Shown here: positions 7,234 to 21,799 of the stretch, in pieces
How the letters are laid out: each line of letters opens with the position of its first letter
Position numbering within the stretch: position 1 is the first letter of the stretch
Assembly: GCF_018449605.1 (NCBI RefSeq)
Contig: NZ_JAAVUW010000011.1
Location: forward strand, 1-64,000
DNA from: Luteibacter sp. dw_328
GTDB lineage: Bacteria; Pseudomonadota; Gammaproteobacteria; Xanthomonadales; Rhodanobacteraceae
DNA length: 64,000 bases
Reading direction: 5' to 3'
Translations under genes and position numbers: made by a program
The notes under the pieces: model-generated
Told to the model about the DNA's origin: nothing
What the model saw: the letters and a program-made list of their open reading frames with translations, nothing else
Database searches by the model: none

Positions 7234-8988
7234 ATGCAAGTAAACGACACCTTCGGCGACGTCCGCGTCACCACGCATTGCGACGGCGACGATCTTCTCA
7301 GCGCCGGTCTGGGCTTGCGCGGTCTGGCGGGTACCGCGACACGCTTTGCGCACCCTGCGTCACCGACACCGGCCGAGCTGCGTCAACGTGCGATCCAGTC
7401 GAGCTGGAAGGGCATCGCCGATCTCGGTCCGCTGGGTGGTTTCGGCACGCTATACGGCAGCGTCCCGAACGTCCCCGGCCGCGAGTTCACCACGTTCGCC
7501 AGCCTGCCTGGCGCACGCGCGCCGCACCGGGTGCTGGCCCAGGTGCCGGATGACTTCGACCGCAAGAAGCGCTGTCTGGTGGTTACCGCATCGTCGGGTT
7601 CCCGCGGGATATATGGGTCCATCGCCCTGGCCGGTGGCTGGGGCCTCCCGCGTGGATGTGCCGTGGCCTATACGGACAAGGGCACCGGAGCGGGGTACTT
7701 CGATTCCTCCGATGAGACCGGTGTAGCGCTCGACGGCACGCGTGCCAGGGCAGGGACCGTGCCGCTTGAGTTCGAACCGAAAGGCCTGCCGGCCGACGCC
7801 GGCATCGCCGCCAAGCACGCGCACTCCGGCGACCATCCCGAGGCCGATTGGGGGCGCCACGTACTGCAAGCGGCGCGCTTCGGCCTGGCCATGCTCGATC
7901 GCGCCTTCCCCGACGACGCCCCGTTCACGGCACAGAACACGACGATCATCGCCACCGGTCTGTCGAACGGCGGCGGTGCCGTGCTGCGCGCGGCTGGCGA
8001 CGACAGGGACGGCATCCTCCACGCCGTAGTCGCGCTCGAACCCAACATCTATGTGCGCGGCACCGGCCGCTCGTTCTACGACTACGCGACGGAGGCCGCG
8101 CTTCTGTTGCCGGCTGCGCTGGCGGCACGCGAATTCGACGGCGTGCCCTTTGCGCGCGTCGGGGCGGCGTCCCCGACCGCCTGGGCGCTGCGTTGTGCGT
8201 CGCTGCGCGCCCACGGGAGGCTCTCCGCGGTCATGCCGGGGGCGCAGGCGGCCGAGGCCCTGGACCTCCTGAGGGCCGGTGGCTGGCGGAACGACGTCCT
8301 GGCCACGGCTGCATCCTCGACCGCGCTGGACCTATGGCGCGCCGTGACTGTCGCCTATGCCTCGGCGTACCTGAAACGCGATGCCGCCCATATGCCGTGC
8401 GGGTTCTCGTATCGCGCGCTTCCGGCGAGCGGCCTGGCAGGTCCCTCCGATGCGATGGTCCGCGCGGCCTGGTGGGCGGATGGCTCGGGTGTACCGCCCG
8501 GCGCGGGCGTCATCCTCGCCGGGGGTACGGATCTCTCGCTCGACCCCACCTTGCCCGGCGTGCTGTGCCTGCGCGATCTCCAGACCGGCCACGGCGGCGA
8601 ATCCGAGCAACTGCGTGCCGCCGTGGATGCTACCGCGGCGGACCTGCCGCGGGACGACCTTCCGATCCTGATCGTCCACGGCGCACAGGACGGCCTGATC
8701 CCGGTGGCCTTCAGCTCGGAGCCATACGTGAAATGGCTGCGCGACGCCGGCCGCACGCCGGTGTTCTGGAAGGTCCCCTACGCCCAGCACTTCGACGCCT
8801 TCCTGGCCTTCCCGGATTTCGGCGACCGGCACGCCCCGCTGCTGCCCTTCGGCTACGCCGCGCTGGACCGCGCCTGGTCCCACGTCAGTGAGGGCAGGGC
8901 GCTGCCCGAGGACGCCGCCGTGCGCGATACCGGCCCCCGTGGCGCCGGCCCGCTGACTGCCGAAACGCTGGCTCTGCCGCACAACTGA
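7234..8988 (+). CDS. D-(-)-3-hydroxybutyrate oligomer hydrolase
   Basis: A 584-residue hydrolase of the 3HBOH family (PF10605), which cleaves 3-hydroxybutyrate oligomers to monomers in polyhydroxybutyrate breakdown. Family hallmarks visible are GLGLRGLAG near the start, [28 protein letters not shown] and the nucleophile elbow GLSNGGG with Ser244. An Asp in HGAQDGLIP and a His in AQHFDAF complete a likely catalytic triad. Many characterised members are about 690 residues with an export signal. This one begins directly in the mature-like region with no signal peptide, so it is probably cytoplasmic unless an unusual upstream start is used. No PHB synthase or phasin gene is in the window. Confidence 0.88.
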
Positions 8989-17315: not shown

Positions 17316-17954
17316 ATGTCGCCACGCACCGCCGCGATATCGAATCTCTATGCGATCGTCGTTGCGGCGGTGGCGTGGTCCGGGCTGATGTTGCAGTACT
17401 GGTTGATCCTGTGGTCCGGGACGATCGGTCATGCCACGGTGCGTTATTTCAGCTTCTTTACCATCCTGTCCAATCTGCTCGTCGCGCTGGTTGCAACCGC
17501 CGCGGCCACCGGTGGCAGCTGGGCGCCGCTGCGCGTATGGCGAAAGCCGCGCGTACGCGGTCTCGCTGCGCTGTGCATCGCCGTCACCTGCCTGATCTAC
17601 GCCACGATTCTCGCGGGTCAATGGCATCCGCAGGGGCCCCAGCTCATCGCGGATCGCATCGTGCACTATGTCGTGCCTTTCCTGTATCTGTTCTGGTGGG
17701 TGGCACTGTTGCCCCACGGCACATTGGTATGGCGCGATGCGCTTCGCTGGTTGTTGTTTCCGGTGGTGTTTCTTGCATGGACGCTGCTGCGAGGCGCGGT
17801 GGTGCATGAGTACCCGTATCCGTTCGTGGACGCGGATCGCCTGGGCTACGCCACGGTACTGATCAACGCGATCGTGGTTGCGCTGGTCTTCGTCGTGCTC
17901 GGCCTCGGCCTCGTCGCCGTCGATCGCGTGATTGCCCGCTACACCAACGCCTAG
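17316..17954 (+). CDS. Pr6Pr family membrane protein
   Basis: A 212-residue integral membrane protein with about six hydrophobic segments and short polar loops. The features RYFSFFTILSNLLVAL, DRIVHYVVPFLYLFWW and AVVHEYPYPFVDADRLGY are characteristic of the bacterial Pr6Pr family, whose biochemical role is not established. Its start is 5 bp after the M1 peptidase stop, so the two are probably co-transcribed. A functional link cannot be inferred. Confidence 0.75.
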   Translation: MSPRTAAISNLYAIVVAAVAWSGLMLQYWLILWSGTIGHATVRYFSFFTILSNLLVALVATAAATGGSWAPLRVWRKPRVRGLAALCIAVTCLIYATILAGQWHPQGPQLIADRIVHYVVPFLYLFWWVALLPHGTLVWRDALRWLLFPVVFLAWTLLRGAVVHEYPYPFVDADRLGYATVLINAIVVALVFVVLGLGLVAVDRVIARYTNA

Positions 17955-18034
17955 CGTTATTCTTGCTTTGCATTGACCCTCGATTCACGGAGTCGCTGCG
18001 ATAACCGGACCGCTGCCAAAGCGTGAGGTCCGTC

Positions 18035-19912
18035 ATGAGCAAGACGCCGTTCGACGCTTCTGCGTTGCATGAGAGGTTTGACCGGCTCGATCATGCGCGT
18101 CTTCCCGAGCGTGTCGTCAACGCTCGTGGTGCCGGTGCCCATGGGTATTTCGAAGCCTATGAATCGATGGTGTCGTTGACCCGTGCCGATTTCCTCAGGG
18201 AGAAAGGCAGGCGTACACCCGTGTTCGTGCGATTCTCCACCGTATCGGGTTTTCGCGGGTCGACCGACCTTGCGCGCGATGTGCGCGGTTTCGCCGTCAA
18301 GTTCTATACCGAAGAGGGCAACTACGATCTTGTCGGCAATAACATGCCGGTGTTCTTCATCCAGGACGCCATGGTATTTCCCGACCTGGTCCAGGCAGCG
18401 AAGCCCGATGTGCACAACGAGATGCCGCAGGCGGCGACAGCGCAGGATGCGTACTGGGAGTTCATTTCCCACATGCCCGAGTCCATGCACATGATCATGT
18501 GGGCCATGTCGGACCGCGCCATCCCGCGAAGCTACCGCATGATGGAAGGCTTTGGCGTGCATACGTTTCGCATGGTCAACGCGGCCGGTGAGGGATGCTT
18601 CGTCAAGTTCCACTGGAAGCCGGCACTCGGGTTGCATGCCGTGACGTGGGACGAGGCGATCAAGATTTCCGGTAACGATCCGGATTTTCACCGTCGCGAT
18701 CTCTTCGACGCGATCGAAGCGGGCGAGTATCCGGAATGGGAATTCGGCGTGCAGGTGGTGGACGAGAAAGATCGCCATGCCTTCGATTTCGACCTGCTCG
18801 ACCCTACCAAGCTGATTCCCGAGGAGGTCGTTCCCGTTCGCCGTATCGGCAAGCTGGTGCTTGATCGCAACCCGCGCAATTACTTCGCGGAAACCGAGCA
18901 GGTGGCTTTTCATCCGGGTCACGTCGTACCCGGCATCGACCTTTCCGAGGATCCGCTATTGCAGGGGCGCGTGGCGGCATACGCACGCGCGCAGGCATTG
19001 CGTCTGGGTGTCGGCGATGGACACGACCTGCCGATCAATCGTGGCAGTGCGCCGTCACGCGATCGATCGCGCTTCCGGGGCCATGGCTCGCGCAGCGATG
19101 CCTTCCGCGATCACTTCACGCAGGCGCGGATGTTCCTGCATAGCCAGTCCGAGCCCGAATACAACCACCTTTGTCACGCGCTCGAATTCGAACTGGGAAA
19201 GGTGAGTTCGCCAGCGGTACGTCAGCGCATGTTGTTCATGCTTGCCCAGGTCGACGAGGACCTTGCGGCGAGTGTCGGCAAGGGGCTGGGCATGCCGGTG
19301 CCGCGAAAAAACGACAGGTCCCTCGATGGGCCGGCCCCGGATACCAGGGATTCGCAGAAGCTGCCGTGGCTTCCAGCGCGGGACGTACCCGTATCGCCGG
19401 CGCTCAGCATGGCGAACAGCCGCCAGAGCGGCATCGCCACGCGCAAGGTGGCGGTGCTCATCGCCGACGGTTACGACCGTAACGACCTGGCCATGATGCG
19501 CAAGGCATTGGAGAGCAGCGGCGCCTGGGTAAGGATCGTCGCACCGCAACTGGGCGCCATACCGTCGCATCGCGACACGGTGGAGGCGGACTTCAGCTTC
19601 CGCACGGGCGATTCTGTCCTGTTCGACGCGATCTACATTCCGGGTGGCCGAAAAAGCGTGGACGCCTTGAAGCGGCACGTGGAAGTCGGTGATTTCGTTC
19701 GCGACAGCTGGCGCCACTGCAAGCCTATCGCCGCCAGCGGCGCTGGCGTCGAACTGCTGGCCGGCTTGCCCGGTACGGTTTCCGGTCCTGGGAAGCTGAG
19801 GGCGGCGCATGGCGTCGTGGTTGCGCCGGGTAAGGCCAGCGACGCCATGGCGGATGCCTTCGTACAGGCTATCGCCAAGGGGAGGCATTGGGCGCGCGAG
19901 ACGCTGGCCTGA
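18035..19912 (+). CDS. Large-subunit catalase-like protein with DJ-1/PfpI tail and Asn for the distal His
   Basis: A 625-residue clade 2 (KatE/HPII-type) catalase homologue: haem domain about 1-440, then a DJ-1/PfpI-like domain about 465-620. The proximal tyrosine (Tyr316 in GRVAAY, with Arg312) and the distal Asn segment GNNMPVFFIQDA (101-112) are present. The distal catalytic His of the RVVHARG motif is Asn29 (RVVNARGAGAHGYF, codon AAC at 18119-18121). In E. coli HPII the equivalent His128 is needed for activity, so this protein may be inactive or do another reaction. The N-terminal arm is also much shorter than in HPII. The ATG at 18035 with GAGGT upstream is the start; a GTG four codons earlier is in frame. 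Confidence 0.88.
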   Translation: MSKTPFDASALHERFDRLDHARLPERVVNARGAGAHGYFEAYESMVSLTRADFLREKGRRTPVFVRFSTVSGFRGSTDLARDVRGFAVKFYTEEGNYDLVGNNMPVFFIQDAMVFPDLVQAAKPDVHNEMPQAATAQDAYWEFISHMPESMHMIMWAMSDRAIPRSYRMMEGFGVHTFRMVNAAGEGCFVKFHWKPALGLHAVTWDEAIKISGNDPDFHRRDLFDAIEAGEYPEWEFGVQVVDEKDRHAFDFDLLDPTKLIPEEVVPVRRIGKLVLDRNPRNYFAETEQVAFHPGHVVPGIDLSEDPLLQGRVAAYARAQALRLGVGDGHDLPINRGSAPSRDRSRFRGHGSRSDAFRDHFTQARMFLHSQSEPEYNHLCHALEFELGKVSSPAVRQRMLFMLAQVDEDLAASVGKGLGMPVPRKNDRSLDGPAPDTRDSQKLPWLPARDVPVSPALSMANSRQSGIATRKVAVLIADGYDRNDLAMMRKALESSGAWVRIVAPQLGAIPSHRDTVEADFSFRTGDSVLFDAIYIPGGRKSVDALKRHVEVGDFVRDSWRHCKPIAASGAGVELLAGLPGTVSGPGKLRAAHGVVVAPGKASDAMADAFVQAIAKGRHWARETLA

Positions 19913-19966: not shown

Positions 19967-21799
19967 ATGATATTTCGCTGGTTCGAATCCCTTATCGACA
20001 TCTTCCGTGAAGCGCCGGACCGCGCGCCGCCGAAGAGCGTCGTGCGTTTCTACATCTACTACCTGCGCCAGGTATGGAAGGTCTTCGCCGCTGCGCTGGT
20101 CGTCGGCCTGGCGGTGGCTTTCATCGAAGTGGCCCTGTTCGACTTCCTCGGACGGGTGGTCGATATGGCGCAGAAAACGCCGGCCGCCGTGTTCTTCCAG
20201 ACCCACGGCAAGACCCTGCTCTGGATGGGCTTCGTCATCGTCGTCCTGCGGCCCCTGTCCATCGGGCTGCACGACCTGCTGGTGAACCAGACGCTCAACC
20301 CCGGCATGACCAACATGGTGCGCTGGCAGCATCATCGCTACGTGCTGAAGCAGAGCCTGGCGTTCTTCCAGAACGATTTCGCCGGTCGGATCGCCAACCG
20401 CATCATGCAGACCGCGCCTTCGCTGCGCGAGTCCGCGGTGCAGGTGGTGGATGCGATGTGGTACGTCACCGTCTACGCGGGTACGTCGGTCTACCTATTC
20501 GCCAAGGCGGATCTGCTCCTGGCGTTGCCGTTGGTGCTGTGGATCGCGTGTTACACCGGCATGCTGGTGTTCTTCGTGCCGCGGGTGAAAGAGCGCTCCT
20601 GGAAAGCATCCGAGGCGCGTTCGAAGCTGATGGGCCGCATTGTCGATGGCTACAGCAACGTCATGACGCTGAAGCTCTTCGCCCATACCCATCGCGAAGA
20701 GGCATACGCGCGCGAGGCCATGCTCGAGCAGACCGGCAAGGTGCGCTCGTCCAACCGCATGATCACCTCGATGGATATCTCGATCACGTCACTCAATGGC
20801 CTGCTGATCGCTGGGACCAGCGCGCTCGCGCTGTGGCTGTGGTCGCGCGGTACGGTGTCGACCGGTCAGGTCGCCCTTTCGGTCGGTCTCGTCATCCGGA
20901 TCAACAACATGTCCGGCTGGATCATGTGGGTGGTGAACGGCATTTTCGACAACGTCGGCACCGTGCAGGACGGCATCACTACGCTGGCGCAGGAGCGGAC
21001 CGTCGTCGACCGCGACGACGCGAAGCCGCTCGTGGTGACCAGGGGCGAAGTGCGCTTCGACGATATCCACTTCCATTACGGCAAGGCTGGCGGCGTCATC
21101 GGTGGGCTGGACCTCATCGTTCGCGCGGGCGAGAAGATCGGTCTGGTGGGCCCTTCGGGCGCCGGCAAGTCCACGCTGATGAACGTGATGCTGCGCCTCT
21201 ACGATCTGGAAGACGGCCACATCCTCATCGACGGCCAGGACATCGCCAAAGTCCAGCAGGAATCCCTGCGCTCGAACATCGGCGTGGTCACCCAGGACAC
21301 CTCGCTGCTGCACCGCTCGATTCGCGACAACCTGCTCTATGGTCGTCCCGATGCAACGGAAGCGGAAATGTTCGAAGCCGTGCGCAAGGCGCGCGCGGAT
21401 GAGTTCGTGCCGCTGTTGTCGGATGGCGAAGGCCGCACCGGTTACGACGCGCACGCCGGCGAGCGCGGGGTCAAGCTGTCCGGTGGACAGCGCCAGCGCA
21501 TCGCCATCGCACGGGTGCTGCTGAAGGATGCGCCGATCCTCGTGCTCGACGAGGCGACCTCGGCGCTGGATTCCGAAGCCGAGGCGGCCATCCAGGAAAG
21601 TCTTGAAACCTTGATGCAGGGCAAGACGGTGATCGCCATCGCGCATCGCCTGTCGACCATCGCCCGCATGGATCGCCTGGTGGTCATGGAACACGGCGCC
21701 ATCGTCGAGACCGGCACGCATGCGGAACTGATTGCCCGCGGTGGTCTGTATGCGCGGCTGTGGGCTCACCAGACCGGCGGCTTTGTCGGCGTCACCTGA
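19967..21799 (+). CDS. ABC exporter half-transporter (permease fused to ATPase)
   Basis: A 610-residue half-transporter of the MsbA/multidrug type that likely works as a homodimer in the inner membrane. An N-terminal six-helix ABC membrane domain (about 25-330) is followed by a nucleotide-binding domain. The Walker A is GPSGAGKST, the signature LSGGQRQRIAIAR and the Walker B LVLDEATSALD, and the H-loop is in AIAHRLST. All catalytic residues are present. The substrate cannot be read. It is a single gene between the catalase and a convergent LysR regulator; the upstream ribosome site is weak. Confidence 0.9.
   Translation: MIFRWFESLIDIFREAPDRAPPKSVVRFYIYYLRQVWKVFAAALVVGLAVAFIEVALFDFLGRVVDMAQKTPAAVFFQTHGKTLLWMGFVIVVLRPLSIGLHDLLVNQTLNPGMTNMVRWQHHRYVLKQSLAFFQNDFAGRIANRIMQTAPSLRESAVQVVDAMWYVTVYAGTSVYLFAKADLLLALPLVLWIACYTGMLVFFVPRVKERSWKASEARSKLMGRIVDGYSNVMTLKLFAHTHREEAYAREAMLEQTGKVRSSNRMITSMDISITSLNGLLIAGTSALALWLWSRGTVSTGQVALSVGLVIRINNMSGWIMWVVNGIFDNVGTVQDGITTLAQERTVVDRDDAKPLVVTRGEVRFDDIHFHYGKAGGVIGGLDLIVRAGEKIGLVGPSGAGKSTLMNVMLRLYDLEDGHILIDGQDIAKVQQESLRSNIGVVTQDTSLLHRSIRDNLLYGRPDATEAEMFEAVRKARADEFVPLLSDGEGRTGYDAHAGERGVKLSGGQRQRIAIARVLLKDAPILVLDEATSALDSEAEAAIQESLETLMQGKTVIAIAHRLSTIARMDRLVVMEHGAIVETGTHAELIARGGLYARLWAHQTGGFVGVT

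Follow-up and report, generated by a model that had tools for sequence, protein, structure and literature searches.

What might a catalase be kept for once the distal His on which its chemistry depends has been replaced? This question is raised by one gene in a 64,000-nucleotide stretch of Luteibacter DNA (the window). In HPII-type catalases the distal His is needed for compound I formation. An earlier sequence-only reading of the window had noted that a large-subunit catalase with an intact frame carries Asn at this position, and on re-reading the sequence we recovered the open reading frame coordinates, the unbroken frame of 625 codons and the AAC codon for Asn29 exactly as claimed. The features that enter the analysis are listed below.

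17316..17954, + strand: gene for a Pr6Pr family membrane protein, bordering the insertion site on the left in all 22 Luteibacter genomes in which it was located
17955..18034, + strand: intergenic stretch ahead of the gene, conserved (59 of 80 positions the same across the three Asn-type loci) and containing a promoter-like block
18035..19912, + strand: Asn-type large-subunit catalase relative, 625 residues (open reading frame; Pfam matches; full-length relatives in genomes G014 and G010)
18047..18052, + strand: junction of the in-frame missing N-terminal arm, residues 5/6, approximate (alignment to His-type orthologues)
18110..18379, + strand: otherwise intact distal pocket, Arg26 to Phe115 (eight residues unchanged in five syntenic sequences)
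18119..18121, + strand: AAC codon of Asn29, which stands where the catalytic His (HPII His128) is expected; the other aligned rows have His, 125 of 125
18950..19003, + strand: rewritten proximal helix with Asp306, Arg312, Tyr316, Gln320 and Arg323 kept (alignment)
19061..19096, + strand: shortened wrapping region, place approximate (26 residues from PIN to before DHFTQ, against 69 in the His type)
19430..19909, + strand: DJ-1/Hsp31-like C-terminal tail, Catalase_C (Pfam; regional omega)
19967..21799, + strand: gene for an ABC transporter, bordering the insertion site on the right (flank comparison)

Asn at the catalytic His position

The protein matches the Pfam families Catalase (PF00199, 494.8 bits), Catalase-rel (PF06628, 65.4 bits), Catalase_C (PF18011, 66.3 bits) and DJ-1_PfpI, and the Catalase_C and DJ-1_PfpI matches bear out the earlier description of a retained DJ-1/PfpI-like tail. 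With its core, Catalase-rel region and Catalase_C tail, and nested as it is in the family tree, it is by descent a clade 2 large-subunit haem catalase. Against the NCBIfam model for catalase HPII (NF008422) it scores 753.8 bits, the cut-off of 1102 being exceeded by no match in any of the 23 Luteibacter genomes. Residues 9–347 align without gaps to residues 108–446 of Escherichia coli HPII, so that adding 99 to a residue number gives its HPII equivalent: Asn29 is His128, Arg312 is Arg411 and Tyr316 is Tyr415. HPII residues from about 447 to 493 are absent. The alignment confirms that the haem-ligand Tyr316 and Arg312 are kept, and the GNN (101–103) and FFIQDA (107–112) motifs are likewise in place.

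In an alignment of 128 distinct sequences, three of them of the Asn type, the position equivalent to Asn29 is His in all 125 other catalases. The aligned locus rows go back to 138 loci; a length and similarity filter let 125 of them through, two being identical copies. Among the 13 short or distant loci dropped beforehand, nine have His in the motif, the other four being the distant relatives L004 and L024–L026. All of these sequences were reached through their similarity to the query or through a catalase family search, and so they do not form a random sample of catalases. The distal His of an active monofunctional catalase is thus absent, with Asn in its place, from three of three Asn-type sequences: the window protein and its full-length relatives in two genomes of the same genus, G014 (87 percent identity) and G010 (85 percent). 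These form the clade of Asn variants that the sequence-only reading had suggested looking for. A sequencing error at Asn29 was ruled out, because the two further Luteibacter species carry Asn at the same chromosomal site through AAT codons, where the window has AAC.

Searches at the family, class and order levels (233, 369 and 398 genomes in overlapping sets, the class and order sets being drawn evenly from larger groups) gave no further full-length relative. Among the titles and abstract openings listed by searches of one open-access library, we found no natural haem catalase with a replaced distal His.

Two forms at a single chromosomal site

The flanking Pr6Pr and ABC transporter genes were located in 22 of the 23 Luteibacter genomes, the remaining one (G012) being incomplete. 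In 17 of the 22 the site is empty, with the flanking genes 24–149 bases apart and no catalase between them. A catalase occupies the site in the other five, in the Asn form in the window genome (G000), G014 and G010, and as a 729-residue His form in G008 and G017. A tree was built, with the arm left out, from 69 of the 128 rows; in it the five syntenic catalases form one group (support 100/99), separate from the ordinary Luteibacter KatE; within it the Asn clade (100/100) pairs with the catalase of G008 (100/98). The stem of the Asn clade is long, at 0.49 changes per column, where the His tips measure 0.12 and 0.14, and the flanking genes give 0.052 for the stem to the Asn-carrying clade. The Asn clade is nested in a His-type syntenic group, and the Asn form is thus descended from a catalase of the active type; the simplest reading is that this happened at this very site.

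In the tree of the flanking genes the catalase carriers are not one clade: G008 pairs with G013 and G017 with G011, partners whose sites are empty. The pattern of catalase presence at the site reflects either repeated loss or repeated insertion at one spot. Within the Asn clade, synonymous divergence is 0.86–1.03 in the catalase and 0.42–0.66 in the three flanking genes tested, and GC3 is 0.76–0.78 in the catalase against about 0.85–0.87 in the M1 and ABC genes.

The sequence-only reading had also asked for a second, normal catalase in the genome, and two were found. The window genome has four PF00199 matches: the window gene, a 717-residue KatE with His, a 509-residue small catalase with His and a weak 369-residue relative. 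G010 and G014 have the same four kinds of match, and the distal His was read in their KatE proteins as well. As an ordinary KatE and a small catalase are present in all three Asn genomes, loss of the catalytic residue goes together with redundancy, in what is one clade and one event. As for the two carriers of the His type, G008 has nothing beyond the syntenic catalase and a weak relative, while in G017 the syntenic catalase is joined by a small catalase and weak relatives. A separate oddity was seen in one ordinary Luteibacter KatE (L019; G003:C1:2386867-2387880), where the sequence LQGRLFSD puts Asp in the place of the haem-ligand Tyr, the distal His being kept; this is a single sequence and could be a sequence error.

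Altered and constrained regions of the Asn form

Several changes are linked in the Asn form: the replacement of His by Asn, loss of the arm, loss within the wrapping region and a rewritten proximal helix around the kept ligand Tyr. In agreement with the earlier remark that the N-terminal arm is short, 28 residues precede Asn29 compared with 87 before the His of the syntenic orthologues, so that about 59 residues are missing; as the first residues, MSK-P, are kept, this looks like an in-frame internal loss. The wrapping region has lost 41–43 residues in frame, 26–28 residues separating PIN from DHFTQ in the Asn type as against 69 in the His type. In ordinary catalases the N-terminal arm hooks into the wrapping region. 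In the helix that carries the ligand Tyr, FSYTDTQ has become AAYARAQ, AAYAHAQ or EAYARAQ. Residues 10–300 contain 145 positions with at least 95 percent conservation in the other sequences, and 12 of them are changed in all three Asn-type proteins; these 12 fall in residues 10–29 (5 of 15) and 114–146 (7 of 21), blocks that were drawn after the data had been seen, with none at the 109 positions elsewhere. The corresponding counts are 8 of 22 in residues 301–352, 0 of 20 in the helical part and 0 of 11 in the tail.

Since such changes accompany redundancy, the gene might simply be decaying slowly in species that have other catalases. A key residue and two segments have been lost, and pairwise omega (Nei–Gojobori) among the three Asn genomes is 0.09–0.12 at a dS of 0.86–1.03, compared with 0.030–0.037 for the ordinary KatE and 0.071–0.093 for the small catalase of the same species, so that the Asn-type gene changes faster than the ordinary KatE. 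Against decay, a codon branch model (615 codons, five sequences) gave an omega of 0.066 within the Asn clade, close to the 0.061 of the His branches, and omega = 1 within the clade was rejected (2dl 775, p ~1e-170). The frame is free of stops and frameshifts in three species at this synonymous divergence, the upstream region is conserved, and the changes at family-conserved positions are confined to two barrel blocks and the proximal segment. We regard decay as largely refuted and give it very little chance of being the explanation. On the stem, omega was 0.171, a value that differs both from 1 (p 0.001) and from that of the His branches (p 0.0026). A higher stem omega is, however, found in the flanking ABC gene too (0.112 versus 0.037), so that the rise is not special to the catalase gene.

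In the 80-base gap upstream of the gene, pairs of Asn-type loci differ at 12–16 positions (0.15–0.20), compared with synonymous differences of 0.51–0.56 in the gene itself. In view of this conservation and of the low omega, the gene has been kept, and it is probably still expressed. By eye, the Asn-type and the His-type catalases at the site are alike preceded by a promoter-like block (TTGACC, TTCACGG and GCTGCCATAACC, or close to it; 17955–18034 in the window; about 7728–7830 at L131 and about 7531–7620 at L132).

Constraint is distributed unevenly along the protein. For the Asn pairs, and for the one His pair that serves as the comparison, omega is 0.034–0.051 versus 0.055 in the barrel, 0.20–0.23 versus 0.031 in the proximal and wrapping segment (301–352), 0.064–0.138 versus 0.219 in the helical part, 0.23–0.55 versus 0.25 in the linker and 0.095–0.132 versus 0.265 in the tail. 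Constraint is therefore kept or tighter in the three-genome Asn clade, except in the linker and around the haem ligand, where it is looser. The relaxed haem-ligand segment could mean weaker haem binding. Within this segment only 20 of 52 positions are unchanged, and yet Asp306, Arg312, Tyr316, Gln320 and Arg323 are all kept (P 0.006), Tyr316 and Arg312 in all three Asn-type sequences; for the three direct haem anchors alone, retention is borderline (P 0.052). On the distal side, Arg26, Arg66, Ser68, Val70, Asp98, Asn102, Phe107 and Phe115 are the same in all five syntenic sequences, three of the Asn type and two of the His type. These correspond to HPII 125, 165, 167, 169, 197, 201, 206 and 214, which we take to be the distal pocket, and retention of all eight is weak evidence (P 0.074). 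The HPII gate residue Glu530 aligns with Glu386, which is invariant in a 33-row alignment, and Ser234 with a Thr that is also found in 22 of 125 others. In the predicted model the haem-side parts have low pLDDT, largely as in the His-type control.

These patterns bear on the idea that haem chemistry has been given up altogether and the protein survives as a scaffold for its Hsp31/DJ-1-like tail. The tail, which is kept and more constrained than in the one His pair, and the relaxed haem-ligand segment fit this idea, and PMC9137513 and PMC10135305 describe chaperone activity for such tails. The barrel, however, is as constrained as in the His form, and the five proximal residues persist where 32 of 52 positions do not. 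We consider a haem-free scaffold unlikely; the kept haem anchors favour a haem-bound role.

Proposed role and comparison with known systems

The explanation that we prefer, and think somewhat probable, is that the Luteibacter gene goes back to an active-type large-subunit catalase at the site and now encodes a catalase-dead protein, which binds haem and has been kept for a non-catalatic role. As the sequence is still under selection though the catalytic His is lost, another job has probably been taken up. To this extent the proposal of the sequence-only reading, that the gene is under selection for another role and is not decaying, is supported by Asn in three species, the intact frame, the omega of 0.066, the conserved upstream region and the presence of ordinary catalases. 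Of the roles then suggested (haem storage, sensing, peroxidase-like or chaperone), the peroxidase-like one now looks least likely, because compound I formation needs the same His and the HPII H128N variant is described as inactive.

The mechanism that we envisage starts from what the sequences show: while the gene stayed under strong purifying selection, the enzyme of one sublineage lost the distal His, most of the arm, much of the wrapping region and some of its proximal helix sequence. To judge from the kept residues, haem would still be bound by Tyr316 with the support of Arg312, its propionates would be met by Arg26, Arg66 and Arg323, and peroxide could still reach the haem through the main-channel gate of Val70, Asp98, Glu386 and Thr135. 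Without the distal acid–base His, splitting of the O–O bond would be too slow for a catalase, as in inactive HPII H128N. With the arm-in-loop hook trimmed on both halves, the interlocked tetramer would probably not form. Removal of peroxide would be left to the ordinary KatE and the small catalase of the genome. Our committed guess is that the protein binds haem and peroxide and works by this binding, the Hsp31-like tail being its working or output part.

The peroxide step of this scheme leans on a laboratory variant. A review and a later paper (PMC9687031 and PMC10836395) describe HPII H128N as inactive and report that soaking brought H2O2 into its channel and active site, with hydrogen bonds to Glu530 and Ser234 of the gate. 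By analogy with this behaviour, the window protein should bind haem and admit peroxide, and should not form compound I at a useful rate. The same variant argues against a catalase or peroxidase that is still active through another base. Asn102, Ser68, the channel residues and the haem anchors are indeed kept, and by eye the upstream block is common to the His-type loci; but none of the kept distal positions has turned to His, Asp or Glu in the Asn-type proteins, and the arm and loop are gone. We think continued activity highly improbable.

A similar analogy underlies the part assigned to the tail. Chaperone activity is reported for the Hsp31/DJ-1-like tail of a fungal large-subunit catalase; because the tails of large-subunit catalases show such activity (PMC9137513, PMC10135305), that of the window protein could be the working part, which we offer as a guess, and its well constrained sequence keeps the chaperone idea alive. 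The most specific form of our proposal is that of an in-place pseudoenzyme, a non-catalytic haem protein that binds peroxide undestroyed and signals to the Hsp31-like tail as a gated chaperone or sensor, the interlocked tetramer having been given up. So specific a scheme is possible, and we hold it only tentatively.

A different use of the haem would be that of an organic hydroperoxide enzyme resembling allene oxide synthase or hydroperoxide lyase, with homolytic chemistry that bypasses compound I. CYP74 enzymes use a distal Asn, and with arm and loop trimmed the haem pocket could be more open. Enzymes of this kind with a catalase fold are known, but according to PMC5617202 the coral enzymes retain the distal His, which is involved in starting O–O cleavage. 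Lipoxygenase (PF00305) was unmatched in 23 of 23 Luteibacter genomes, in a search whose positive control was silent too. This alternative seems to us quite unlikely.

Returning to the catalase-dead, haem-binding protein that we favour, its relation to known systems can be set out directly. It resembles E. coli HPII (KatE) in domain order, haem-ligand Tyr, Arg, distal Asn, channel residues and DJ-1-like tail, and differs from it in having Asn for the catalytic His and a rewritten FSYTDT helix. With HPII H128N (3ttu) it shares the same substitution at the aligned position; that variant is engineered and otherwise full length, whereas the window gene is natural, is found in three species and carries further linked changes. 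Like the coral catalase-related allene oxide synthase and hydroperoxide lyase, it appears to put a catalase core to other use. According to PMC5617202, the coral allene oxide synthase cannot remove H2O2, and the coral enzymes combine a kept distal His with a lipoxygenase fusion, in contrast to the Asn of the window protein; the distal Thr–His pair (Thr66–His67 of the coral allene oxide synthase) is here replaced by Val28–Asn29. A further comparison is with the syntenic His-type catalases of G008 and G017, which lie at the same site, share the upstream block by eye and are 76 and 74 percent identical to the window protein over query residues 9–346; in contrast to it, they have 729 residues, with His kept and the arm and loop complete, where the window protein lacks about 59 and 41–43 residues, respectively. 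With catalase-dead and active-type forms at one syntenic site, and empty sites and a second ordinary catalase for comparison, Luteibacter offers a natural experiment on what a catalase can become without its reaction, and on the purpose of the arm exchange and the Hsp31-like tail.
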